Positions 21,886 through 35,186 of a stretch of DNA of 47,332 nt are shown here, piece by piece (position 1 is the stretch's first letter; every line of letters starts with the position of its first letter). This DNA comes from Candidatus Beckwithbacteria bacterium (GTDB lineage Bacteria; Patescibacteriota; Microgenomatia; UBA1400; UBA1449), in contig JAAZOH010000010.1 of the NCBI GenBank assembly GCA_012797845.1, positions 1 to 47,332 on the forward strand, given 5' to 3'. Position numbers and translations under genes: made by a program. Under the pieces are notes generated by a model, which had not been told where the DNA came from, made no database searches, and worked only from the letters and a program-made list of their open reading frames with translations.

Positions 21886-21925
21886 TTTTTTACTCTTGCA
21901 TAATAAGCTTTTTTTTGCCAATATA

Positions 21926-21955
21926 CACAGGTGCAAACAATGCACCTGTGTTTTT
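21926..21955 (+). terminator. Intrinsic terminator after ppsA, also abutting the next start codon
   Basis: A perfect 10-bp stem CACAGGTGCA/TGCACCTGTG (21926-21935 with 21941-21950) with loop AACAA is followed by five T. It lies 41 bases after the ppsA stop. The next ATG (21958) is two bases beyond the T run, so the same bases are the leader of the next gene. Confidence 0.8.
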
Positions 21956-21957
21956 AT

Positions 21958-22692
21958 ATGACCGATAATCTTCAAAGTAATATTACTACTTCACCTAAAA
22001 AACGTTTAGTTAAAATTGGCTTAATTATAGTTATCGGAGTCATTTTTGTTACTGGAGCTTATTTGCAAAATCAAAAACAGCAAACTAAAAAAGTTATGGG
22101 AGCAAAAGCAGCTAGTGCTCAGTTAGTTTATACCTCCAAAGCTACTTTCAAAACAAAAACAGCTCCTTTTATGCAGAAAACTTTTGTTAAAGTTTCCTTT
22201 CTCCCACCTAAACAACCATCGCCAGTTTGGCTCGAATTAGCTACCAAAGATAATGTAGAGGGAGTTAGTCTATTAGTGTATCACCCCCTGCTAGCTAAAC
22301 TTGACTGGCCTTTTATTGAAAATACCAAAATGACTCTGTATCAAAGAAAGCCTATATATACTTCAATTGATGAGTTTGCTAAAAATCCACCTACAGACAA
22401 AATCGTAGTTTTTGATGACTATATGCCTAGAGCCTTAATGTCTAATTTTAAAAGCTTGAGTGATACAGAAAATTTGGATGGAGTTGATTTTATCGCTACA
22501 ACTCATCACCAACTATTCGAAGAGGATGGATTTTTAGTCTATGAAGCTATGGTTGATGCCAGCGGGGCAAAAATAGAAAATGATCAAATGACATGGAATA
22601 TGTTTATGCCTGAAGTTTCAGAAAATAATCCAATTACAATAAAGGGGGTTGACATAACCTATAATCAACCTGCTATGATAGAGTCACAATAA
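21958..22692 (+). CDS. Membrane-anchored hypothetical protein
   Basis: The family of this 244-residue protein is not recognised. After a short basic N-terminus, one membrane helix (about 20-38, IGLIIVIGVIFVTGAYL) leads to an extracytoplasmic domain of about 200 residues with regular beta strands and no cysteine pairs. Readable segments include PVWLELATKDNVEGVSLLVY and DKIVVFDDYMPRALMSN. The ATG at 21958 is preferred over in-frame codons from 21931 because those lie inside the terminator hairpin. It stands between ppsA and the surface-protein cluster, with which it shares its single-anchor layout. Confidence 0.7.
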   Translation: MTDNLQSNITTSPKKRLVKIGLIIVIGVIFVTGAYLQNQKQQTKKVMGAKAASAQLVYTSKATFKTKTAPFMQKTFVKVSFLPPKQPSPVWLELATKDNVEGVSLLVYHPLLAKLDWPFIENTKMTLYQRKPIYTSIDEFAKNPPTDKIVVFDDYMPRALMSNFKSLSDTENLDGVDFIATTHHQLFEEDGFLVYEAMVDASGAKIENDQMTWNMFMPEVSENNPITIKGVDITYNQPAMIESQ

Positions 22693-22794
22693 ATCTGCTG
22701 CCCTTCTTGTAAAAAAGAGATTTTTATTATTTTGTTTTCCTGCCCTAGACAAAAAAAGATAAATACCCTACCATGGATATGGTGTGGACAATAT

Positions 22795-22822
22795 TTGACA
22801 AAACGTTTCTAACTGAGATAAT
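22795..22822 (+). promoter_or_regulatory. Promoter of the WxL-interacting-like gene
   Basis: A perfect TTGACA (22795-22800) is followed after 16 bases by GATAAT (22817-22822). The start would be near 22829, about seven bases before the ATG at 22836. This rules out the longer in-frame start at 22773, which lies upstream of the promoter. Confidence 0.7.
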
Positions 22823-22835
22823 ATCAAGAAAATAT

Positions 22836-23792
22836 ATGAACCACCTCAATAATCTGATGCACAACACTTTTAAAATATTTCTAATAGCATTTTTCTTTGT
22901 CTTTTATGTTATTATTTCAAATAAATTTGTTTTAGCTCAAGGTACTAGTTTAACGATAATTCCCCCCAAATTTGAACTTTTTTCAAACCCTGGTGAAACA
23001 ATTAGTGAAAAAATTAGAGTCAAAAATAATTCTGATGCCCCTCAAACCTATACCGTTTTAATAGAGGATTTCACTACTTCTGGAGAAGAGGGCGATGTTG
23101 TTCTAGAGGAAGAACAATCCGATACCTCTTATTCACTAGCAAAATGGATTGAACCAGCTTTTAAAGATGTAATTCTACAACCGAATGAAGAAAAAAGTTT
23201 ATCATTTGTAGTTAACGTGCCTCGTAATGCTGAGCCTGGTGGTCACTATGCTTCAATTTTATTTCAAAGCAATCTTGAAGGAGTAAATGTTGAAGGTGGT
23301 GCCTCAGTAGCACAACGAATTGGTAGTTTGGTTTTATTGCGAGTATCAGGTAATGTGAATGAAAAAGCTGCAATCGAAAATTTTTCTACTCCAGCCTATC
23401 AGGAAAAAAGCCCTATCAGTTTTCTACTTAGAGTAAAAAATGATAGCAATACTCATATCAGACCCCAAGGAACTATTGTTATTACTAATTTATTTGGTAA
23501 AAAAGTAGCTGAAATTCCTCTTCAAGGATTAAATGTCTTACCGGGAGCAATTAGAAAAATGGAAACGATTTGGGACGAAGGTAATGTTTTAGGAGTTTAT
23601 ACAGCAACTTTAATTGCTACTTATGGACAACAAAAATTGCCACTTACCGCTGCAGTTCGTTTCACTGTAATCCCCAAAACTTTACTTATAATTGGCTTTG
23701 TTGGTGGCGTAGCTTTGATTGGTTTTATTCTAACACTCATTATGGGTCGAAAGCGGTTTGCCAAAATGATGCGGGTCCTTATGAAAGGTTAG
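22836..23792 (+). CDS. Secreted two-domain Ig-like protein with C-terminal membrane anchor (resembles WxL-interacting/DUF916 proteins)
   Basis: This 318-residue protein has a signal peptide (about 10-34, ending VLAQ), a first Ig-like domain (about 36-160: SLTIIPPKFELFSNPGETIS, VKNNSDAPQTYTVLIEDF, PGGHYASILFQS), a second (about 165-275: ISFLLRVKNDSNTHIRPQGT, GNVLGVYTATLIATYGQQ) and a C-terminal membrane helix followed by a basic tail (GRKRFAKMMRVL). Length and layout match WxL-interacting proteins of Gram-positives (DUF916 plus DUF3324), which hold surface proteins at the cell wall. I see the similarity only by eye, so the family is tentative. It opens the cohesin-dockerin surface cluster. Confidence 0.7.
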   Translation: MNHLNNLMHNTFKIFLIAFFFVFYVIISNKFVLAQGTSLTIIPPKFELFSNPGETISEKIRVKNNSDAPQTYTVLIEDFTTSGEEGDVVLEEEQSDTSYSLAKWIEPAFKDVILQPNEEKSLSFVVNVPRNAEPGGHYASILFQSNLEGVNVEGGASVAQRIGSLVLLRVSGNVNEKAAIENFSTPAYQEKSPISFLLRVKNDSNTHIRPQGTIVITNLFGKKVAEIPLQGLNVLPGAIRKMETIWDEGNVLGVYTATLIATYGQQKLPLTAAVRFTVIPKTLLIIGFVGGVALIGFILTLIMGRKRFAKMMRVLMKG

Positions 23793-23891
23793 TTTATTTG
23801 ACTTTTTTCTTCCTCTTCCTCTTGCTACAATTTAACATATTAGACGTATTGCCAAAAAGGTATTTATTGGCAAATAATCAATCGTATCTTT

Positions 23892-25148
23892 ATGAGTCTA
23901 TCTGCCAAGCTGTTGACTATATTTTGTTTTTTAACTCTGATTATATGTTTATCATTTCATTCTCTGGCAACTATTATTCCTATAACCTTAGCGGTAGGTG
24001 AGCTGGAAGATGCCCAGGATTTACTCAACAACGATCAGGAAGGTCTTGTAGGCGTTGAACACGCTATTAGTTTTAAGCTTCCATCTGACGCTCAACACAT
24101 CAGATCATCAGACTATGTAATTGTTTCACTGTATAATTTTGACGCAATCACTTTGCCTACCTCACTTAGCGGTGATTATTTAGGTAATCCTTCTTACTCC
24201 CTTGATGAGAAAGATATTAAGATTACTGGGATCTATTTAAGTCCTGGTGGTACTTTACGTATAGTCGGAGTTACTGCTACCAATCCTAATTTAGAAGCTC
24301 ATTTTAATGTCACGATTACCGTATCTGAAGATGAAGAAGGAGCTATTATTAAAAATATTATCCATATTCAGGCAGCAGCCTTTGATGGCTCGGTAACGGT
24401 CACTGCGTCAATTGCTCCACCTGTCGCTTCACTTAATATTAGCGGTTATTCAGCTCCAGATACTTTTATAACCCTTACTGAAAATGGAACCACGATTGGT
24501 ACTGATGTAGCAGATGCTGAAACAGGGTTATTTAGTAAATATTTAACCGGCTTAGCCAGTGGTAATCATAGTATTACTATTTATGGCGTAGATAATAATA
24601 GTTTAACTACTTCTCCCTACACCTTCTCGGTTAGCACTCCACTTTACCAAGTTACAAGTGTTACTGGATTACTTCTTTCGCCAACAATTCAAATAGATAG
24701 CACAACCATCGTTCAGGGTGATAACCTAATTGCTCAAGGTTCCACTATCCCATCTGGAGATATTAGCCTTTTTACTGAATCACCACTTTCAACTTACTAT
24801 ACAACAGCAGATTCAGTTGGTGCCTGGTCATACACTATTGATGATACGAGCACTTATAATGTTGGTGATTACCGGGTATATGCATTGGTTCAAAATAGCA
24901 TTGGTACTCAAAGTTTGTTTAGTAATTCACTACAGTTTTCGGTAACCGCTAGTTCTAGTGCTACCCCAAGCCCTCCGGCTTGCAGCATTGATCAAGGAGA
25001 TCTCAATTGTGATGATGCAGTTAATTTGATCGACTTTTCTATCCTAATGTATTACTGGGGAACTGATAGTTCTTCTGCAGATATTAATGAGGATGATATC
25101 GTTAACTTGATTGACTTCTCTATCATGATGTACTACTGGGGTACATAA
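23892..25148 (+). CDS. Secreted dockerin-bearing protein with Ig-like modules
   Basis: This 418-residue protein has a signal peptide (about 1-34). A first module (about 35-170) resembles a cohesin-type or CBM-like beta sandwich; then come two Ig-like repeats (about 180-355, each starting near a segment such as SAPDTFITLTENG). A short Ser/Pro linker leads to a C-terminal type I dockerin: two calcium loops, D-L-N-C-D-D-A-V-N-L-I-D at 370-381 and D-I-N-E-D-D-I-V-N-L-I-D at 397-408, each followed by FSI(L/M)MYYWGT. The ligand residues at loop positions 1, 3, 5, 9 and 12 are all present. Dockerins bind cohesins; two cohesin-like proteins are encoded just downstream. Confidence 0.88.
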   Translation: MSLSAKLLTIFCFLTLIICLSFHSLATIIPITLAVGELEDAQDLLNNDQEGLVGVEHAISFKLPSDAQHIRSSDYVIVSLYNFDAITLPTSLSGDYLGNPSYSLDEKDIKITGIYLSPGGTLRIVGVTATNPNLEAHFNVTITVSEDEEGAIIKNIIHIQAAAFDGSVTVTASIAPPVASLNISGYSAPDTFITLTENGTTIGTDVADAETGLFSKYLTGLASGNHSITIYGVDNNSLTTSPYTFSVSTPLYQVTSVTGLLLSPTIQIDSTTIVQGDNLIAQGSTIPSGDISLFTESPLSTYYTTADSVGAWSYTIDDTSTYNVGDYRVYALVQNSIGTQSLFSNSLQFSVTASSSATPSPPACSIDQGDLNCDDAVNLIDFSILMYYWGTDSSSADINEDDIVNLIDFSIMMYYWGT

Positions 25149-25237
25149 GCAAATTTCTTCATAGATTCACACTATCTTTCTGCTTGCGAAGCTATCTCAA
25201 ACTTGCTAATCTAATATAAGGAGTATTAGTAATTTAC

Positions 25238-25340
25238 CACTTTGCTTTGTTTGTCATTGCAATGCCAAACGTAGCGTATGTAAACCTGACAAGGTTTTGT
25301 TTGGTGTGATGCAATTATTGGATATATGGAAAGCAAAGTG
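25238..25340. repeat. Long interrupted inverted repeat (103 bp)
   Basis: Nested perfect arms are 25238-25248 with 25330-25340 (11 bp), ATTGCA 25256-25261 with TGCAAT 25310-25315, CCAAAC 25265-25270 with GTTTGG 25299-25304, and AAACCT 25282-25287 with AGGTTT 25292-25297, around the loop GACA. The outer arm ends 14 bases before the start codon at 25355. The rest of the 206-base gap (25149-25354) holds no gene. It may be a palindromic mobile repeat or a structured leader. Confidence 0.55.
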
Positions 25341-25354
25341 ATTTGATTTCTGCC

Positions 25355-26995
25355 ATGGCTCGAACTAAAAAATACCTGTCTTCACCGAGTAGTTCGGCAG
25401 CAAAGAGGGGGTTTTATCGCCCTTTGCGTCGAATTAGTGATAAGCCTGCTGCTAAGGTAGTTTTGTCTTCGGCTAAAAATACAATTAATCCAGATAATGC
25501 AACTAATACTGAAATTGAGGAACTAAAAGCTCAGATTCAAAAAGCCCAAGACTTAAAAGCTGAACTGGAGCAAAAAATCAAATCTGAGCTAAATGATTCA
25601 TCACATGAACCAACCTACCAAGCTCTGTCCAGAAATCTAAAACCACAGTCAGCTGAGGAAGAGTCAGAGCCTCAAATTTCACACCTCAAACCATTACATG
25701 CTCAACAGCAAGAAACAGAAGAAGAGCCTGATTTTACAAGTCATAGTGGCGATGAAAAAATGTTGCTATTAGAAAAAGAACTTAATTATGCTTTAAAAAA
25801 AGAAGAACAGTTTAAACACCAGATTTCCGAAATGAGAGAAGAGCTAGAAAAAGAGCGAGAGCAAATGCAACATACTATCAAAAACTTGCGCCAAGATGTC
25901 AGAGGTATGCAACCTTTACATGAAAATAAGTTTTTTTCAATTTCCCAGGAATTGCAGGAAGTGGTTTCTGCTATGAATCAACTTGTTGAAACTGAAAACA
26001 CTCCCACCTCTTCGGCAAACAATACAACTCAAACAGCAGTTACCCCTGCTAATCAAACTAATAATATTGTTACTAACCAAGCGGCAGCAACTCCTCAAGG
26101 AGGAGAAGGAAGTCCGGCTGAGGCACCTACTAATACTCAACCTCAACCCTCCGCCAACCAGCCGACTCCTGCTGATCAAGCTCCTGGGACAACAACCCCA
26201 GAAACACAAGCTGCTCAACCTGGGAATACAGAACCAGAGCCTAAGAAAGGAGGTCTACTTTCAAAAATTCCCAAACCAGTTAAAGTTCTAGCAATTGCTT
26301 TAATTATTGTGACAGCTTTAGGAGGAGGCGCTTGGTATTTCTTAAATCGTAAAACTGAAGTCGATACTGCCCTTTTACAGGAATATTTACCCGAAGGAGT
26401 TGAAGCCCCTCAACCACAAGTTGCTGGTGATAGTACGGTTGCTGAACCAGAACCAACAGCTAAGCCAACTCCAACTCCAAAGCCAGAAGCCAAAAATAAG
26501 GGCAGTACTCCAGAACTAAGTCTTGAACCAGAAAAAGATAAATACGAGGAGTCTCAAGCAGACATCTCGTTTGCTGATACAAAATGGGATACTTATGTTG
26601 ACCAGGAATTTGGCTTTGAGTTAACGTATCCTAAAAACGTAGTCAATATCGTTAGGACTGATAGCAGTATTACCTTTATTAGGAAAACTGGCTATGTTTT
26701 TAAAATCCAAATTATTGAAACTGCACTAGATCTAGCTGAGTATTGGAAGCTGATTAAAGCTAGCAGTTTAAGTTATAAAGTTAAAGAAACTACCTTTAGA
26801 GACAAACCAGCTCTCCTGCTCGAGCTTGAAGATTTTTCTGATTATCCTGGTGATAAGTATTTGGTCAAAACCTCAGAAAACTATGTTTTAGACATATGGT
26901 ATGCAACTTATAGCAACACACTTTCTGACGATGATGCTAAGAGAATTGATATTATGCTCAACTCCATGAAGTTTATCGATGAAAAAGAGGAATAA
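25355..26995 (+). CDS. Coiled-coil single-pass membrane protein with extracytoplasmic domain
   Basis: No family is recognised for this 546-residue protein. The cytoplasmic part starts basic (MARTKKYLSS), then has two heptad-rich coiled-coil stretches (about 50-80 and 130-190) and a long Pro/Thr/Gln/Asn-rich linker (about 215-300). A membrane helix follows (about 312-332, VLAIALIIVTALGGGAWYF), then a Pro/Lys/Glu linker and a compact outer domain (about 410-546: WDTYVDQEFGFELTYPKNVV, YVLDIWYATYSNTLSDDDAK). The N-terminus-in orientation is inferred from the charges. The ATG at 25355 is preferred over the in-frame TTG at 25343. Its position before two cohesin-like genes suggests a scaffold linking cytoplasm and surface. 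Confidence 0.75.
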   Translation: MARTKKYLSSPSSSAAKRGFYRPLRRISDKPAAKVVLSSAKNTINPDNATNTEIEELKAQIQKAQDLKAELEQKIKSELNDSSHEPTYQALSRNLKPQSAEEESEPQISHLKPLHAQQQETEEEPDFTSHSGDEKMLLLEKELNYALKKEEQFKHQISEMREELEKEREQMQHTIKNLRQDVRGMQPLHENKFFSISQELQEVVSAMNQLVETENTPTSSANNTTQTAVTPANQTNNIVTNQAAATPQGGEGSPAEAPTNTQPQPSANQPTPADQAPGTTTPETQAAQPGNTEPEPKKGGLLSKIPKPVKVLAIALIIVTALGGGAWYFLNRKTEVDTALLQEYLPEGVEAPQPQVAGDSTVAEPEPTAKPTPTPKPEAKNKGSTPELSLEPEKDKYEESQADISFADTKWDTYVDQEFGFELTYPKNVVNIVRTDSSITFIRKTGYVFKIQIIETALDLAEYWKLIKASSLSYKVKETTFRDKPALLLELEDFSDYPGDKYLVKTSENYVLDIWYATYSNTLSDDDAKRIDIMLNSMKFIDEKEE

Positions 26996-26998
26996 ATC

Positions 26999-27547
26999 AT
27001 GAAATTTACAGACTCTCATTATTTTACTTTATTACTAATCTTTGCCGTAATAGTCATAGCAGCTTTTGGCCTTTTTTCATTACTGTCAGGGGGGTTAAAT
27101 AAATCAGGAAATATTTTAGGTCAAAAACATAAAGTAGGCACATATCAAATTGAAAGTGATCAACAGGTATCAGTTTCTATCCCTTTTACAATGCGCTTTA
27201 ATGTTGACACCAAAGGCAAGGCTGTTAATGCGGTTGGGCTATACGTCAACTTTGACCCCAATATGATTGAGATTATTAACTTAGAAACTGCTCAGTCATT
27301 TTGCCAATTCTACCCAGAAAATAAATTTAGCAATAGCGAAGGTACGATTTCGATTGGCTGCGGAGCTCCTAATCCAGGTTTTACTGGTAAAAATACGATT
27401 GCTGTTGTCAAGTTTTATCCTAAAAATTTGGGTGAAACAATTATTAAAGTTTTACCTAAAAGCCAAATTTTACTCAATGACGGCAAAGGAACGGACATTT
27501 TTTCCGGTCCCATTGAACACAAGATCACTATTTTAAATAGTATTTAA
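26999..27547 (+). CDS. Membrane-anchored cohesin-domain protein
   Basis: This 182-residue protein has an N-terminal membrane helix (about 8-30, FTLLLIFAVIVIAAFGLFSL) and one cohesin-like domain (about 50-180). The fold markers are SIPFTMRFNVDTKGKAVNAV, the VNFDPNMIEIINL strand that is nearly invariant in cohesins (YDP..L form), an ISIGCGAPNPGF segment, and a late VVKFYPKNLGETIIKV strand. Cohesins bind dockerins; a dockerin protein is encoded 1.9 kb upstream. It begins four bases after the preceding stop, with GAGG nine bases before the ATG, so the two genes are co-expressed. Binding is predicted, not shown. Confidence 0.82.
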   Translation: MKFTDSHYFTLLLIFAVIVIAAFGLFSLLSGGLNKSGNILGQKHKVGTYQIESDQQVSVSIPFTMRFNVDTKGKAVNAVGLYVNFDPNMIEIINLETAQSFCQFYPENKFSNSEGTISIGCGAPNPGFTGKNTIAVVKFYPKNLGETIIKVLPKSQILLNDGKGTDIFSGPIEHKITILNSI

Positions 27548-27594
27548 ACTTCATTTCACAATTGTTTTATTGTCTGATTAAAAAGTATTCTTCA

Positions 27595-27623
27595 TTGCAA
27601 AATTTTCTCAAACTCCTCATAAT
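27595..27623 (+). promoter_or_regulatory. Promoter of the second cohesin-like gene
   Basis: TTGCAA (27595-27600) and CATAAT (27618-27623) are separated by 17 bases. The start near 27630 gives a leader of about 31 bases before the ATG at 27661. Confidence 0.6.
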
Positions 27624-27660
27624 GTTAAGATAAGTTCAAGTTTTTTGAGCTGGTTTTTAT

Positions 27661-28842
27661 ATGAGTTTGATTAAATTATTTTCAGCAACTGTTTTGGTTT
27701 TTATCTTTTTGCTAGCATGTACACAATCTGTATTTGCTAATCCAAACTGTTTTATCACTACTTCCAATCCAAATATCGATGGCACTGACCCAGTAACATT
27801 TAATATTTATCTAGATACTGATGGTGATCAAGTCGGTGCAGTGCAAATTGCTGTTGGCTATGATAGTGAATATTTTGGAACAGCTTTAGTAAGTAGCTAT
27901 GGTTCTGTTTGCTCCATGTGGGCTCCAGCTAATTCCGTTCCTCCTGGTGAAAATCTTATCCGAACCACTCCTTACATATATAGTAACAAGGCTATTTTTA
28001 GCTGTGGAATTTTAGGACAAGGTTATAATGGGACCAGTGGTTTGATCGGCAAACTAACACTCACGCCACTAAAAGATGGCAATACAACCCTAACATTAGG
28101 TAATGCCTTTTTCGCTTTTTTGGGTTCTTCTATTACTCCAGGTGCCATGAGTAATTATCCAGTAGTTATTTCCAATACCTTCACCGACCCTGATGCCACC
28201 CCTACTCCTACCCCATCACCTACGCCAACCACTATTGCTACTTCTTCAGCTACTCCAACTCCCATAGTAACCACTGAAACAATCTTTGATGATGTCGAGG
28301 TGGTTGATTTTCAAAATAATACTAGCTCTGGTTCTACAGGAAGTACCACTGTCGGTTCAGATAATTCAGAATTAGATATAGTTGAAGAAGATAATACTAT
28401 TCCAGCTCCCCCACCCATGACTCCAAGAGCCAAGGCTACTCCTTTTGCCACTCCTGATATCAACTATATGGCTCCAGATACTATGCCGGTTGGAGAAGTT
28501 TTATCTGTTCAAAACTTAAGGGATCTTCTTGTTCCAGGGAAATCTCAGGCAGATAAAACCGTAGTAATGATCAATTTTATTTCCACCATAACTTTTCTAG
28601 TTTTAATTGTCTTAATCTTGTGGAAAATGATGATGAGTACTCGAAATAATAAGTTGAAAAGTCGCTACATCGAAGAAATGATTTCTGGAGAACTCTCAGC
28701 TCTCGAAAGCAAAATGGCTATTGTCAAAGAAAAAGAAGGGCAGCAGAAATTCCAAAGTGATTTTAATGAGTCGGTCGAAAAAATCTTAGAGGAATTCAAG
28801 GAAGGAAAAGATAAAAATGACGAAAAAACACCAAAAGCATAA
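27661..28842 (+). CDS. Secreted cohesin-like protein with linker, membrane helix and cytoplasmic tail
   Basis: This 393-residue protein has a signal peptide (about 1-26, ending VFAN). A cohesin-like domain (about 27-175) shows DPVTFNIYLDTDGDQVGAVQ, AVGYDSEYFGTALV and GLIGKLTLTPLKDGNTTLTL, with four cysteines. A Thr/Pro linker (about 180-280, repeated T-P-T-P units) spans outward. A membrane helix (about 305-325, FISTITFLVLIVLILWKMMM) is followed by a cytoplasmic charged tail of about 65 residues with heptad character. The linker-plus-anchor layout resembles surface-anchoring cohesin proteins of cellulosomes. It has its own promoter (27595-27623). The cohesin assignment is less sure than for the neighbour because loops differ. 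Confidence 0.78.
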   Translation: MSLIKLFSATVLVFIFLLACTQSVFANPNCFITTSNPNIDGTDPVTFNIYLDTDGDQVGAVQIAVGYDSEYFGTALVSSYGSVCSMWAPANSVPPGENLIRTTPYIYSNKAIFSCGILGQGYNGTSGLIGKLTLTPLKDGNTTLTLGNAFFAFLGSSITPGAMSNYPVVISNTFTDPDATPTPTPSPTPTTIATSSATPTPIVTTETIFDDVEVVDFQNNTSSGSTGSTTVGSDNSELDIVEEDNTIPAPPPMTPRAKATPFATPDINYMAPDTMPVGEVLSVQNLRDLLVPGKSQADKTVVMINFISTITFLVLIVLILWKMMMSTRNNKLKSRYIEEMISGELSALESKMAIVKEKEGQQKFQSDFNESVEKILEEFKEGKDKNDEKTPKA

Positions 28843-28882
28843 ACTTGCTTTAAGGTGGTACACTATCACTATCAGCTAAAGT

Positions 28883-30001
28883 ATGAATAAAACAACTAAA
28901 TTGGTATACCTACGTTTTGTTTTAATTTCCTGCCTTTTCTTGACCGCTTGTAATCCTTCAATTAATTTGGATCAGCTTAAAAATTTAGGAAGTCAAAAAC
29001 CCGAAGATACTATCTCTCAAGGTAACATTAATTCAGAAGATATTTTAAAAGCAGATCGTTTAGTAGCTTTGGTTTACCAAAATAAACTCTATCTAGCTGA
29101 TCCTGATTATCCCAAACCTTACCCAATTTACGAATTCAAGCATCAAGAACAGCCAGTTCGTCAAAAACTTGATACTTTTGAAATTAGTCCTGATAAGCAG
29201 TGGGTAGTTTGGTATACACCTGGTAAAGGAGTTTTAGCTTTAGATACCAGTACTAAAAAAGTGCAAGTAGTTAATCAACCTAGCGATTTTTTAAATACCA
29301 ATCCATACTTCGAATTTGACCAGGGTAACAACTTATACTTCATTACCAATAACGGCAATACTTTAGTAAAAACGAACTTAACATCCGGAGAAAGAAGTAG
29401 TGTCGCTATACCTTATCCATACGGGAACGTTTTTAAAGTATCCCCTGATCAGCAACATATTCTGTTTATTTCCGGATATGGTCAAACTGAAGGTGAGCCT
29501 CAGTTTATGTTTACTGATAATAGTGGAAATTTCTTAGTACAATTTACCACCAAAACTAACTTAGCTGACCGACATCAAGTCATTTGGACACCTGATTCTA
29601 GAGGAGTAGCCATGATCAATGGCCAAAATTTGGAATACTATAGTGTCAATGACCCTAACTCGGCTCAAGTTCTTTTTTCAGTCGGTGAAGGTGACCGAAT
29701 TTTAAATATTAATCGAGTTGGTAATGATATCTATCTTTTTACCAGTCAGGGGTATTGGCATGTCTATGATTATGCTCAGGGCAAGGAAGTAGCCCGAACT
29801 CCGATTGCTATTGCCAAAGAACTCAATAGTCCAGTTTTTTATCCTTGGAAAGAAAAGCAGCTTCTTATAGAAGAAACGCTCCCAGAAGGTGAAGCTCAAT
29901 TTAACCGCCTTTGGGTTAGTGATTTAAAAGGGAATAAGAAAATGGTTATGGATAAATATCACGAAGTTATTGTCAAAACCCAGCTCCAGGATCTAGATTA
30001 A
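28883..30001 (+). CDS. Beta-propeller-like lipoprotein
   Basis: This 372-residue protein has a lipoprotein signal (LFLTACNPS, Cys at about 23) and so is anchored on the outer face of the membrane. The mature part contains several repeated four-strand units recalling TolB/WD40-like propellers, for example FEISPDKQWVVWYTPGKGVL, FKVSPDQQHILFISGYGQ and VIWTPDSRGVAMINGQ, spaced by 50-60 residues. Such propellers act as binding platforms; no catalytic residues are visible. It starts 40 bases after the second cohesin-like gene, with a weak TTGCTT-N16-CACTAT upstream, and probably belongs to the same surface cluster. Confidence 0.8.
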   Translation: MNKTTKLVYLRFVLISCLFLTACNPSINLDQLKNLGSQKPEDTISQGNINSEDILKADRLVALVYQNKLYLADPDYPKPYPIYEFKHQEQPVRQKLDTFEISPDKQWVVWYTPGKGVLALDTSTKKVQVVNQPSDFLNTNPYFEFDQGNNLYFITNNGNTLVKTNLTSGERSSVAIPYPYGNVFKVSPDQQHILFISGYGQTEGEPQFMFTDNSGNFLVQFTTKTNLADRHQVIWTPDSRGVAMINGQNLEYYSVNDPNSAQVLFSVGEGDRILNINRVGNDIYLFTSQGYWHVYDYAQGKEVARTPIAIAKELNSPVFYPWKEKQLLIEETLPEGEAQFNRLWVSDLKGNKKMVMDKYHEVIVKTQLQDLD

Positions 30002-30586: not shown

Positions 30587-32824
30587 TTAATTTGCAAACA
30601 ACGCTACTTTTTTCTTTAACTCCTCAATGGTTTGTTTTATCTGCTGATTATTGGGATCATGTCGCAAAATATTCTGATATTCCATTAGAGCCTCGTCGTA
30701 ATATCCTCCTCTGGTGTAAAGCTCAGCTAGTTCAATTCTGGCTTCCAAACTTTCCGGATTACGTAAAGTGGCTTTGAGGATTTTTTGATAAGCCTCATCT
30801 AAGTCACCTAATTTTAAAATACTTTGTCCAGCCTCAAGTAGCTGGGCCGAACTAGAGCTTTCCTGACCCAAACGATACTCAGGATTACCTTCATAGCCAG
30901 CTAGGCTTGCATACAAGTCTCTAGCGTTCTTATAATCGTCTTTCAATGATAAAGCTAGTTTGAAATTTGTCCTGGCGTCAGCTTTATCATTTAAATAGCT
31001 ATAGATCATAGCTGTCAAAGTATGGAAATTAGAAAAATAATCTTGCTGGCCATTACGCCAAAAATCTTTGGGTGATTTTTTATCAGATAACAGCTCTTTG
31101 CTAATTTGATAATCAAAAGTGCCGACTTTATTGGGAACTTTATCCACAACTTGGAAGAGATAGCCTTTGGGAATTAAGAAAAATGGATCTCCTTCCATAC
31201 CAATAAAAGAAATATAAAAACCAACTGCATCAGATAAAAATACAGGTCTACCTTTATATAAATTCCAGGAAATAATATCAGCTGAAAAGTATGGATTGTC
31301 GGTTCCAACTAAATAGTACAGTTCAGGATGTCTTTGAACATAATAATGTTTGATATAAATATTTTTAGTAACTAATGACACATCTGGCCTAACGCCCTCA
31401 ACTTCTTGCATATACATCATCGAAAAACAGGAAAAATCAGCAAAACAAACAAGCACTGAATCTTTGGGAACACTTTCTAAAACTTGCTTAGCATAATTCC
31501 AAGCATGACGATTATTTCTTTGTACACCAATCGAGTAGTTATCATAAACTGCCCAACTAATTAGAAGCACGCCCGTTAAACTTACGACCAAAATTGCATT
31601 GACTGTATTATTTTTAAAATACCGCCACAGCAGGTTAAGTCCCGCCCAAAGACCTAAAATGATAAAAATTCCCCAAACAGTCTCTCCTAGCAAGTATTGC
31701 CGATGGGCTACTCCTATAGCACTACGATATTCCAAATTATTGGGATCGTTTTCCGGCATAGTCATATATATACCGATAAAAAAGCCTGAACATAAAAACC
31801 ATGTAGCTAAAATAGTTCCTAATTTCCAATTTCTTTTGAAAAGATATGCAGCGCCTCCTAAACCGATAAAGGCTCCTAAATAACTAAAATGCTGATTGAG
31901 GTAATACCAATAAATTGGGATATTGTTAATAAATTTACTAAAAATAAAGCCGCCTAAATAAGCTGCTCCCTGCACATTTTTTTCTGGAATAAAGCCAGTA
32001 TAAACTTTGCGGGTCACCTGTCCCCACCAACCCGACCAGGTTTGAGGAAAATACCAGGAGACATTAGCTTGGTGACTGTTAAGCCAAAACAGTATCAAGT
32101 TAACTCCCAAAAAAGCTCCAAATCCCAAAACGGCGGCGGCAATTAATTTAATTACTCCATATTTAGACCAAACTTTTTTTTCCAAAAATGTTAAAAGCAA
32201 AGCTACTGCAAAACCTGGTAATAAAAGAACAAAAACATGAACATGTGAAACACCAATACCAATTAAAATAGCGGTGAGAAAAAAGCATAATAATTCTTTA
32301 AACGTCGCCTTCGAATCAGCTAAAGCAAATTTCCGCCAATAAAGCGTAGTTAAAATTGCCGCAGCTCCCAATAAATCATTGAGAGGACCTACTTCCGTCA
32401 CTCCGGCATAGAGCCAAAACATAGCAGAAAAACCTAAAAACAAAGAACCAGTAGCAGCAATCAGGGTTGGTAATAACTGATTTGACTCTTTTCCCTTTTT
32501 ATCATTATCTAGTGGTAATAGCCTGGTAAGTTCAAGGCCAATTAAATAAATAGCCAAAACTGTCAAACTATGAAGCAAACTATTAAGAATATTAGCTCTA
32601 AAAGCAATAGTGCCAGGAATTGGTAATAAAGTAAAAAGTTTAATTAAAACTACCATCAATGGATAACCGGAAGGGTGAGCTGAACCAAGAAGATAGCCAA
32701 CAGTAATAAGCTCATCACTATCTGCATAACCGGGATTAGTTCTACTAGCGCTAAAAATATAAACAAGCAATGAAATAAACCATACCAAAAGCGCCCCAAT
32801 AGTTTTAAACGATGGTTTTTTCAT
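30587..32824 (-). CDS. DUF2723 membrane protein with C-terminal TPR (paralogue 1)
   Basis: This 745-residue protein is predicted to be a GT-C type glycosyltransferase or surface-protein glycosylation factor. An N-terminal helix is followed by the family loop (YADSDELITVGYLLGSAHPS, then GYPLMVVLIKLF), whose acidic pair is a likely catalytic site. About 11 more membrane helices extend to about residue 420. A soluble extracytoplasmic region comes next (for example VLVCFADFSCFSMMYMQEVE). The last ~110 residues form TPR units (ILKLGDLDEAYQKILKATLR, YYDEALMEYQNILRHDPNNQ). It lies 8 bases after paralogue 2, and the two are likely co-transcribed. Substrate unknown. Confidence 0.85.
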   Translation of the reverse strand: MKKPSFKTIGALLVWFISLLVYIFSASRTNPGYADSDELITVGYLLGSAHPSGYPLMVVLIKLFTLLPIPGTIAFRANILNSLLHSLTVLAIYLIGLELTRLLPLDNDKKGKESNQLLPTLIAATGSLFLGFSAMFWLYAGVTEVGPLNDLLGAAAILTTLYWRKFALADSKATFKELLCFFLTAILIGIGVSHVHVFVLLLPGFAVALLLTFLEKKVWSKYGVIKLIAAAVLGFGAFLGVNLILFWLNSHQANVSWYFPQTWSGWWGQVTRKVYTGFIPEKNVQGAAYLGGFIFSKFINNIPIYWYYLNQHFSYLGAFIGLGGAAYLFKRNWKLGTILATWFLCSGFFIGIYMTMPENDPNNLEYRSAIGVAHRQYLLGETVWGIFIILGLWAGLNLLWRYFKNNTVNAILVVSLTGVLLISWAVYDNYSIGVQRNNRHAWNYAKQVLESVPKDSVLVCFADFSCFSMMYMQEVEGVRPDVSLVTKNIYIKHYYVQRHPELYYLVGTDNPYFSADIISWNLYKGRPVFLSDAVGFYISFIGMEGDPFFLIPKGYLFQVVDKVPNKVGTFDYQISKELLSDKKSPKDFWRNGQQDYFSNFHTLTAMIYSYLNDKADARTNFKLALSLKDDYKNARDLYASLAGYEGNPEYRLGQESSSSAQLLEAGQSILKLGDLDEAYQKILKATLRNPESLEARIELAELYTRGGYYDEALMEYQNILRHDPNNQQIKQTIEELKKKVALFAN

Positions 32825-32831
32825 AGTTTTG

Positions 32832-35186
32832 TCAATTTTCCGAAGTTAACTGGCCAAAACACTGGGCAGCTTCTTTGTTGTCGGGATGATATTTAAGTAT
32901 ATTGCTATATTCTAAAGCAGCCATATCATATTCTTCAAGTTGTTCGTAGATTGAAGCCAGTTTTAACCTAGCTTTGACATCGAGTGGCTCCATGGCTACT
33001 GCCCCATAAGCTCCTATATATGCTAAATCAAGTCGCCCTCTTTTGATAAATTCATCTACATTTTTTAAGACCTCATCTACTGTTTGTCCTGATTCTCCAG
33101 GACCAAAAGCTTCAACTGGTCCAGCATTTTCAACATAACTTCTGGAGGCTTCAATTTGGTTGTGTGAAATTTGCGGAATTTGAAATAGTAAGTCTGAAGC
33201 AATATTGAGCTCATCTCTGACTTTAGCTCGAAATCCCATTTTTTGGTACATTACACTATTAAAATTATGAATTCTTGCAAAAATTGTTTTGATCCAAGAA
33301 CGCATTAGGTCTTTTGAGCTAACATGAGCTTTTTTTAAATCCAGCGATAATTGATAATCAGTTTTTGGCAGAGTTTCAGGAACTGTTTTTACCAGCTGAC
33401 CATAGTAACCATGCGGTATGTAGTACAAGAAACCATAATGCATACCCAAGAAATTGTAATAGGTTTGATCTATATCAGTAACAAAAACTGGTCGCTTACC
33501 AACATTCCAAGTTATGTAGTCTAAAAGCAGGAATGGGTTTTTATCATAACCATAGCCTCGTAAATTTGGATATTTTGCTAGTTTATCAGCCACCAAAGGA
33601 TATTGAACTGGCAGTACAATCACATCTGGTCTTACATTATTAACGCTTTGTTCATATAAAAGAGCAAAGCAAGCAGTATCAGTAAAACAAGCTAGCATTG
33701 AATCTTTAGGTAAGTTAGATAACATCTGGTGATACAGTCGACTAACGATATTAAAATGGGATAAATCAACCTGACGATAATTGCTTTGTACTTGCCAAAG
33801 CAAAACTATGCTTGCCAAAGCAATAACGGTAATAGTAGCCAAACTGCCCTGTTTTGGCTTAAGTAAAAAGGTTAAAACTTTACGCAGCCGAACTAAAACC
33901 CACCACCAACCAACCATAAGTGGAAAAACTAAAAAGATATATCCCATGAGATAGAGTCGCATTGTTACTGCTTGCATCCCAATATCACCAGTAAAGCCTA
34001 AATAAAGAGGTAGCAAAATAGCTGTCGGCACTAGCCCCGCTAAAACTAACCAACCAAAACGTTTTAAATCTTTAAGACTAAGCCATAAACCAATCGCTAT
34101 CATAACTAAATTGATGAGGCCAAAGTGGCTGAGAATAATTTGAATATAATGAGGTAAGCTTTCTAAACTCTGGCCAATATCAACAGACAATTGATATGGT
34201 GTAGTTTGAACCCCAGTACTAAGATTGGTACCGGCAAAATCCTGTCTAAAAATATGGCCCAGTAAACCTGATAGGCTTTGTTCAAAACGCCAACTGACTA
34301 TAGCGCTATGGCTATTCTGCCACCATAAAATACCGGCTGAAACTAGTAAAGTTGCTAGAAAAGGAATTAATACCCAACTAATTTTTTTTATACTCAGGTT
34401 TTTTTTGACAAAAATCAGTAGGGTAATTATTGATGGTAGCAACAAAATAGAGAGTTGGTGATGAGCTAAACTTAGACCAAAACTTCCGCCTAGAATTATC
34501 CACCAAATCTGAGTTTTTTTGTTTTGCGCTAAGGTAAAAATACTAACAGCAGATAACAAAAAAATAGAAATTAAAAAGTTACCAAAGGCATATTTTTCCG
34601 GCACTACTCCATAAAGCCAGATCAAAAAAGATGAACCCAACATTGCAACTGGCAAAAAACTCAATAACACCCTATCCCATAGAGTTGAAAAAATAGTATT
34701 TTTAGTAAAGATATTGGCTTGCAAATAAGCAATGCTTCGCCACAAAACCAGAAAAAGTATCGACATTGTGCTAGCTGTCAGCAAAGCTGTAAGCACACTC
34801 CCTCTAAAGGCTACTGAACCAGGGATTGGCAAGTTGGTAAAAAAATGAAGTAATAAAGTATATAAAGGATAACCTGGTGGGTGCGCTACTCCAAAATGAT
34901 ATGCCACCGCCAACAATTCATCGCTATCCGCATAAGAAACATTGGTTCGCGGAGCCGTTAATATGTAAAGAATAAAAAACCCTAAACCTACCGCTACTGT
35001 TCCTAACCAAGCCATATTTGGCAGCAATGCTTCAACCCTAATTTCAACACTGGGTTTTTTAGTTTTTGTAGAATTTATTTTTTTATTTTGGGAAATATTT
35101 TTTCGGATAATCTTTTTTGCTATAGTTTTCTTATTAGATACTTGTTTTATTTTGTTGGATTTAGTTTTTTTTGTCTTAGTTTTCAT
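32832..35186 (-). CDS. DUF2723 membrane protein with C-terminal TPR (paralogue 2)
   Basis: This 784-residue paralogue has the same plan as its neighbours. A Lys/Thr-rich cytoplasmic N-terminus of about 50 residues is unique to this copy. The first membrane helix is followed by YADSDELLAVAYHFGVAHPP and GYPLYTLLLHF, then about 11 helices, a soluble region (MLACFTDTACFALLYEQSVN) and a TPR end (LKLASIYEQLEEYDMAALEY, SNILKYHPDNKEAAQ). It is the first gene of the pair on the minus strand. The Lys-rich N-terminus is encoded by poly-A-rich codons and could interact with nucleic acid or the inner membrane surface; that is speculation. Confidence 0.85.
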   Translation of the reverse strand: MKTKTKKTKSNKIKQVSNKKTIAKKIIRKNISQNKKINSTKTKKPSVEIRVEALLPNMAWLGTVAVGLGFFILYILTAPRTNVSYADSDELLAVAYHFGVAHPPGYPLYTLLLHFFTNLPIPGSVAFRGSVLTALLTASTMSILFLVLWRSIAYLQANIFTKNTIFSTLWDRVLLSFLPVAMLGSSFLIWLYGVVPEKYAFGNFLISIFLLSAVSIFTLAQNKKTQIWWIILGGSFGLSLAHHQLSILLLPSIITLLIFVKKNLSIKKISWVLIPFLATLLVSAGILWWQNSHSAIVSWRFEQSLSGLLGHIFRQDFAGTNLSTGVQTTPYQLSVDIGQSLESLPHYIQIILSHFGLINLVMIAIGLWLSLKDLKRFGWLVLAGLVPTAILLPLYLGFTGDIGMQAVTMRLYLMGYIFLVFPLMVGWWWVLVRLRKVLTFLLKPKQGSLATITVIALASIVLLWQVQSNYRQVDLSHFNIVSRLYHQMLSNLPKDSMLACFTDTACFALLYEQSVNNVRPDVIVLPVQYPLVADKLAKYPNLRGYGYDKNPFLLLDYITWNVGKRPVFVTDIDQTYYNFLGMHYGFLYYIPHGYYGQLVKTVPETLPKTDYQLSLDLKKAHVSSKDLMRSWIKTIFARIHNFNSVMYQKMGFRAKVRDELNIASDLLFQIPQISHNQIEASRSYVENAGPVEAFGPGESGQTVDEVLKNVDEFIKRGRLDLAYIGAYGAVAMEPLDVKARLKLASIYEQLEEYDMAALEYSNILKYHPDNKEAAQCFGQLTSEN

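Follow-up and report, generated by a model that had tools for sequence, protein, structure and literature searches.

Six co-oriented genes between position 22773 or 22836 and position 30001 of a contig of Candidatus Beckwithbacteria (JAAZOH010000010.1, here contig C10 of a 1.28 Mb genome in 46 contigs; its whole 47,332 nucleotides are referred to as the window), preceded at 21931 by a seventh conserved gene, include those for a WxL-interacting protein (WxLIP)-like protein, an exported protein with two immunoglobulin (Ig)-like domains and a C-terminal dockerin, and two membrane cohesins. An operon that joins genes for a WxLIP-like and an Ig-Ig-dockerin protein with one to five genes for membrane cohesins is found across the Patescibacteria; it is called from orientation and spacing, with promoter and terminator scans at chance level (30 vs 27.8; 6 vs 5.6). 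We consider it likely that this set is a Patescibacteria-wide surface module, in which an unanchored exported Ig-Ig protein is held by its dockerin on membrane cohesins. The parts are known ones in a new arrangement that is ordered and phylum-wide; the docking step is strongly suggested, and the dockerin/cohesin pair would serve as a replaceable, probably calcium-dependent membrane tether in a locus that holds no enzyme. This reading draws on a dockerin above its Pfam cut-off, the predicted folds of both cohesins, conserved gene order and adjacency, the exchange of the dockerin for a transmembrane (TM) segment at other loci, and matching subtypes. The Patescibacteria form a very large group, of which the few members in culture live on the surfaces of other bacteria; to our knowledge, little has been established about the way in which their surface proteins are attached.

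The genes and domains on which the argument turns are as follows.

22836–23792, plus strand: WxLIP-like (DUF916) exported protein with a C-terminal TM segment (PF06030)
23892–25148, plus strand: secreted protein with an N-domain, two Ig-like domains and a C-terminal dockerin (PF00404; profile A6)
24420–24977, plus strand: the two Ig-like domains (profile A8), the part in common with the TM-tailed version of other Patescibacteria
24996–25145, plus strand: dockerin with two near-identical loop-helix repeats (PF00404; loops read from the sequence)
26999–27547, plus strand: cohesin 1, an N-terminal TM segment and a cohesin with the motif LLNDGKGT (fold that of the ortholog in locus L117)
27661–28842, plus strand: cohesin 2, with signal peptide, cohesin, PT-rich linker, TM segment and cytoplasmic tail (predicted AlphaFold2 (AF2) fold; alignment A3)

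The dockerin

A first-pass annotation, made from the nucleotide sequence and its translations, had described a secreted protein with two complete dockerin loops, and this was borne out: residues 369–413 of the protein match PF00404, the type I dockerin family, at 28.0 bits (cut-off 22.9), and both calcium loops (D-x-N-x-D...D, about 24996–25145) are intact, with D or N at positions 1, 3, 5 and 12. The tail also matches solved dockerins in a PDB sequence search (E 0.0025 to 0.0064), and for the homolog in L117 only, AF2 places helices after the loops, at 16–24 and 43–51. The dockerin is the most conserved part of the protein, with 30 of 50 columns invariant among five orthologs compared with 67 of 341 for residues 28–368. 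Orthologs in the two nearest relatives, genomes G212 and G213, are 51–54% identical, and the Ig protein is the only dockerin protein of its subtype in its own genome (one match in G000). The two repeats agree at 18 of 23 positions and share the helix motif DFSI(L/M)MYYWG; a corresponding internal symmetry count for a dockerin on contig C36 was misaligned by an insertion and was not used. Type I dockerins are known for dual binding, and the agreement between the repeats is as expected if either repeat can bind, so that the near-symmetric dockerin could engage its partner in two orientations. The titles of structures 2vn5 and 2vn6 likewise point to dual binding of type I dockerins.

The cohesins

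The Pfam hidden Markov model (HMM) check suggested with the first-pass annotation was passed by the dockerin but not by its proposed partners: cohesin 1 scored 19.3 bits, below the PF00963 cut-off of 24.1, and cohesin 2 gave no Pfam cohesin match. That cut-off was taken as a mark of sensitivity, not as a defining trait; operon homologs in L118 and L136 pass it (29.9 and 30.1). Fold comparison was needed because PDB sequence searches with the cohesin profiles yielded no match (best E 0.29 and 0.4). On the homologous contig L117 the genes for the dockerin protein and cohesin 1 share one frame around a single stop; a chain taken from there was modelled by AF2 with a pLDDT of 90.6, and its cohesin part, the ortholog of cohesin 1, gave a VIA Z of 15.7 to 4uyp_A (root-mean-square deviation (rmsd) 2.4, 135 aligned). 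Ranks 1–45 for this chain (Z 15.7 to 12.1) are all cohesins, either by title or as the cohesin of a complex or cellulosome entry, in rows that cover residues 105–248 only, that is, not the dockerin part. Window cohesin 2, modelled alone (pLDDT 86.8), gave a VIA Z of 14.3 to 2vo8 (rmsd 2.4, 131 aligned), with the top 31 rows all cohesins. The fold matches include the Archaeoglobus cohesin 2xdh and modules of Clostridium perfringens, and identity to solved cohesins is 7–18% in the VIA rows. By predicted fold, which for cohesin 1 is the fold of its ortholog, both proteins are cohesins; the claim of two membrane-anchored cohesin-like proteins thus held up, and the beta-sandwich of another family that the annotation had named as its possible undoing did not appear in the top rows.

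Sequence comparison within the Patescibacteria agrees. The cohesin 1 ortholog in L107 matches an HMM of other Patescibacteria cohesins at 73.9 bits (E 1.7e-21), and hhalign identifies cohesins 1 and 2 as homologs of one another (probability 93.8%, E 1.8e-7). Each protein holds one cohesin; as read from the sequence, cohesin 1 has an N-terminal membrane segment, and cohesin 2 a C-terminal membrane helix followed by a coiled-coil-like cytoplasmic tail of about 65 aa. Among 113 distinct cohesin open reading frames (ORFs) of operon loci, 96 have a C-terminal TM-like stretch, with at least 40 residues beyond it in 53 of the 96.

Distribution and gene order

The first-pass annotation had called a self-contained set of this kind unfamiliar; the set did not prove to be peculiar to its own genome. 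The nearest relatives are G212 (labelled Candidatus Beckwithbacteria) and G213 (UBA1449) of the same family, and the whole locus with its gene order is conserved in two other genera of that family. The sister family holds G200 (SZUA-360) and G199 (RBG_16_45_19); in G199 the locus is split, one contig carrying a gene like that at 21931, the WxLIP and the dockerin gene, and another the coiled-coil protein and both cohesins. Retention of both modules on different contigs counts in favour of a functional pairing of dockerin and cohesin. Within the order, 5 of 88 genomes encode a full-length dockerin protein, and four of these five also a clear cohesin 2 ortholog. Dockerins are present in 100 of the 137 genomes of the class and cohesins in 101, so the question is not a marginal one; when 150 listed dockerin and 150 listed cohesin matches of the class were compared, 36 of the 150 dockerin matches had a cohesin within 5 kb among the matches listed, all on the same strand, where about 2.2 would be expected.

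Two surveys extend the operon to the phylum. Scanning of the GTDB species genomes with the dockerin protein yielded 57 loci, picked by two dockerin peptides; by hand count 43 carry Patescibacteria-type labels, 13 are unlabelled and one is labelled Methylomirabilis, with Falkowbacteria, Nealsonbacteria and Parcubacteria among the labels. No dockerin ORF was found in L167, and 56 loci were therefore counted. The order is WxLIP, dockerin, cohesin(s): a cohesin gene lies at most 4 kb downstream on the same strand in 49 of 56 loci (48 of the 52 with room), a WxLIP-like gene lies upstream of the dockerin gene in 29 of 56 (27 of the 41 with room), and each operon locus has one to five cohesin genes downstream of the dockerin gene. 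An even draw of 379 genomes of the phylum, searched with profile A6 and independent of the peptides used in the GTDB scan, gave 44 full-length matches in 40 genomes, these being the 51 best matches minus seven that stop short of the dockerin (one of the seven, in G330, has the dockerin as a separate listed piece). An operon-type cohesin occurs within 6 kb on the same strand for 41 of the 44 matches, downstream for 39, and somewhere in the genome for all 44; at E ≤ 1e-15, operon-type cohesins are present in 40 of the 40 genomes with a full-length match versus 24 of the 339 others. That the order is conserved in two other genera of the family and across the phylum argues that the gene set is not a chance assembly. 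Misbinning as the source of the operon was rejected, because many independent assemblies show the same order and orthologs. The one locus that looks stray is L156, labelled Candidatus Methylomirabilis; it carries a dockerin-cohesin-cohesin set and is probably a misbinned Patescibacteria contig.

Exchange of the dockerin for a transmembrane segment

The Ig-Ig part was also used alone, as profile A8, and 14 loci were taken, mostly ones at which the match to the dockerin profile stopped short of the end. Two of them, L184 and L185, retain a dockerin-like tail and have a cohesin; the pattern count places L185 among the tail-less loci, its degenerate dockerin having escaped the pattern, although the cohesin is there. 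At the other 12 loci the Ig domains are followed by a hydrophobic segment, with best Kyte-Doolittle windows of 1.71 to 4.21; L181 is the weakest of these TM calls (1.71), and the proteins of L182 and L183 continue beyond the segment. A WxLIP lies within 2.5 kb at 10 of the 12 TM-tailed loci, and no cohesin was found at any of the 12 within the stretch retrieved around the locus. Six of the 12 genomes have a Pfam cohesin elsewhere, in no case within 100 kb on the contig of the locus. At dockerin-tailed loci a cohesin is nearby in 47 of 54. The simplest reading is that dockerin and cohesin together do the job of a transmembrane anchor, and because a TM helix stands where the dockerin is absent, the dockerin would most simply anchor its own protein on its own cell. 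The enzyme-free docking of an Ig-like surface protein on the membrane, as first proposed from the window alone, thus gains support from the folds, from co-occurrence and adjacency and from the TM tail found where the cohesin is missing. The analysis lent no such support to the further proposals that the Ig protein is an adhesin and that it may serve contact with a host cell, and what speaks for calcium is the two loops.

Subtypes and other loci of the genome

The motif NDGxGT is present in 73 of the 117 cohesin ORFs from operon loci and absent from all 75 ORFs from other cohesin loci (first 69 loci), this pattern and DFSI having been chosen after the alignments were viewed. Profile A7 outscores the general cohesin profile for every one of the 119 operon ORFs, for 4 of 58 of the class and for none of 4 elsewhere in the genome, a comparison that is partly circular in that some rows built the profiles. 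The scan for further dockerins that had been proposed turned up three other cohesin/dockerin loci in the genome, with other dockerin helices and other cohesins, and no second dockerin protein of the same subtype. This matching of subtypes fits private pairs.

One of these loci, L009 (3225–9743 of contig C36), encodes a DUF5719 protein that ends in a dockerin-like tail, a GH39 protein and three cohesin or cohesin-like proteins, one of which ends in an LPSAG-like motif and a TM segment; the early statement that no glycoside hydrolase is present thus applies to the window locus, not to the genome, where this GH39 protein stands beside cohesins. At L007 (4595–10299 of contig C12) one NHL-propeller protein carries CBM60 and has two dockerin-like loops at its C terminus; its companions are a protein that combines a cohesin with a dockerin and an Fn3 cohesin protein with a TM segment. 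A further dockerin-like tail is borne by a sub-threshold polysaccharide-lyase-like protein. A wider idea, possible but in our judgement doubtful, is that Patescibacteria generally build surface complexes with private cohesin-dockerin snap-fasteners and without sortase-type covalent attachment, each locus using its own matching subtype so that a cell could carry several complexes without crosstalk, with a TM helix able to replace the fastener and with the cohesins' cytoplasmic tails passing contact information inward.

The WxLIP-like protein

The WxL-interacting-like protein recognized in the first-pass annotation matches PF06030 (DUF916, peptidoglycan-binding) at 32.4 bits (cut-off 27.3) and is the only WxLIP of its genome. 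The host-binding half, DUF3324 (PF11797), was not recognised in it and is sub-threshold (17.0) in the L118 homolog. No WxL domain was found in the locus, the genome's only PF13731 match lying on another contig, C2; two possible WxL partners, of 360 aa in L115 and 211 aa in L118, appeared WxL-like by eye and were dropped for want of a Pfam match. WxLIP proteins have been proposed to bind hosts, and those of Gram-positive bacteria to bind the wall or a WxL protein (PMC10599100, in the part available).

Model and alternative explanations

The data have led us to propose a model in which the Ig-Ig-dockerin protein would be exported without a membrane anchor of its own and its C-terminal dockerin caught by cohesins in the cytoplasmic membrane, probably with calcium in the two loops. 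Cohesin 1 would be seated by its N-terminal helix and cohesin 2 by its C-terminal helix with the cytoplasmic tail, while the WxLIP, membrane-anchored beside the complex, would probably connect it with the wall or with a WxL protein. We infer that the operon cohesins are what the dockerin binds, that calcium is required for this, and that the functional, outward-facing part is the Ig-Ig protein.

Several observations weigh against this model. No nearby cohesin was found for seven of the 54 dockerin-tailed loci: for L114 the cohesins are at another locus of the genome, L134 and L147 reach a contig end, none was found for L113, and for L149, L151 and L152 a permissive search of the ORFs in the stretch retrieved gave none. 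Motif conservation within the 57 peptide-picked loci is circular, and the Fisher tests of co-occurrence ignore relatedness. Some of the 24 further genomes with operon-type cohesins have no full-length Ig-Ig-dockerin match (for example G230, G270, G343, G344, G372, G408 and G439), and their cohesins may have other partners. A pTM of 0.79 for the L117 dockerin-cohesin 1 chain was rejected as proof of docking, as the membrane helix also packs and the model carries no interface error. Four of the genomes just named, G230, G372, G408 and G439, belong to family f63, and their operon-type cohesins are strong matches.

The genome's other loci, with their GH39 protein beside cohesins, CBM60 protein with dockerin-like loops and dockerin-like tail on a polysaccharide-lyase-like protein, would suit a cellulosome-like polysaccharide apparatus in which cohesins and dockerins hold carbohydrate-active proteins, and what is available of PMC9123182 reads expressed cohesin and dockerin genes of Shapirobacterales as a cellulosome. 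We regard this as very unlikely for the operon. The Pfam scan detected no glycoside hydrolase, carbohydrate-binding module or multi-cohesin scaffoldin in the window locus, which agrees with the early judgement that it is not a cellulosome, nor any above the Pfam cut-off in 10 operon-homolog proteins scanned (L115, L118 and L136), and in every case one and the same Ig-Ig protein is the partner, not a set of enzymes. A similarly slim chance attaches to the notion that dockerin and cohesin have lost their mutual binding and are now folded spacers only: the cohesin subtypes are indeed far from characterised ones, as their low identity to solved cohesins indicates, but the loops and helices show the highest conservation within the dockerin protein, and the dockerin and cohesin subtypes go together, both being absent at TM-tailed loci.

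A released dockerin protein that bridges cohesins of different cells, or of a matrix, and so serves cell-cell or host attachment instead of self-anchoring, is somewhat less improbable, though still unlikely. It would accommodate the many operon homologs with several cohesin genes per dockerin (up to five), the ORFs that match cohesin and dockerin profiles both and could chain, the host binding proposed for WxLIP proteins, and the listing of a dockerin protein as essential in the epibiont Southlakia (PMC10633639, as far as available). Against such bridging stand the TM helix in the dockerin's place, most simply explained by a dockerin that tethers the protein bearing it to the producing cell, and the encoding of the partners side by side in one genome. 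The dual-match ORFs, of about 600 aa, were seen in L142, L143, L150, L154, L157 and L158, and their dockerin-profile match may be to the Ig part only.

Other genes of the locus

The remaining genes of the set and its neighbours are listed here.

21931–22692, plus strand: membrane protein without a Pfam family, which opens the dockerin module; probable start near 21958
25343–26995, plus strand: coiled-coil protein with a single TM segment and a C-terminal extracytoplasmic domain; likely start about 25355
28883–30001, plus strand: lipoprotein, read as propeller-like (lipobox LTAC)
30587–35186, minus strand: two TMEM260-like protein O-mannosyltransferases (PF11028, 91.9 and 94.4 bits), convergent neighbours of the cohesin module

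An ortholog of the gene at 21931 lies beside or near the WxLIP and dockerin genes in G212, G213, G199 and G200. A strong terminator-like hairpin at 21925–21951, at the end of a phosphoenolpyruvate synthase-like gene, overlaps the annotated start of this ORF, and its likely start, near 21958, lies after the hairpin. The WxLIP ORF opens at 22773; a promoter-like match at 22795–22822 and the signal peptide suggest 22836 as the likelier start. Neither the coiled-coil protein nor the lipoprotein has a Pfam family above its cut-off, and an NCBIfam scan of seven window proteins gave no family above its cut-off. Orthologs of the lipoprotein occur only in L106 and L107, that is, within the family only. 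The TMEM260-like pair adjoins the module in L106, L107, L108, L115 and L116 and stands beside the split-off module in G199. TMEM260 mannosylates Ig-like domains, and the pair might glycosylate the cohesin or Ig proteins.

Relation to known systems

A conserved fastener with a natural exchange of tails makes surface attachment testable through short, expressible domains. It also counsels caution against reading the expressed cohesin and dockerin genes of the phylum as a sign of cellulose breakdown, as was done for Shapirobacterales (PMC9123182, in the part available). No description of a WxLIP/Ig-Ig-dockerin/cohesin operon was found in the literature searched, most subscription papers and all preprints lying outside its scope. 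Dockerin repeats are put forward as possible adhesins in Omnitrophota in the available part of PMC10066038. Within the Patescibacteria, one component has a likeness: SEML1_0315 of Southlakia epibionticum is an essential dockerin-domain protein, for which the accessible text of PMC10633639 suggests host glycans, with cohesin named 0 times in the main text. Gram-positive WxL/WxLIP clusters, in what is available of PMC10599100, resemble the operon in having a WxLIP-like membrane protein beside surface proteins, and one WxL-domain protein is found elsewhere in the genome; here, however, it is a dockerin or a TM helix that the surface protein bears, and no WxL domain was found in the locus.

The domains themselves resemble the type I cohesin-dockerin pairs of cellulosomes, in the predicted cohesin fold and in a dockerin with two calcium loops. 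Unlike cellulosomes, the window locus has neither enzymes nor a multi-cohesin scaffoldin, and where a cellulosome offers one scaffoldin to many dockerin-bearing enzymes, here several separate membrane cohesins face one dockerin protein. Cohesins and dockerins also occur outside cellulosomes, as Peer et al. reportedly described in 2009; the arrangement presented here differs from those in that both partners and a WxLIP lie in one phylum-conserved operon with a natural TM-tailed alternative.

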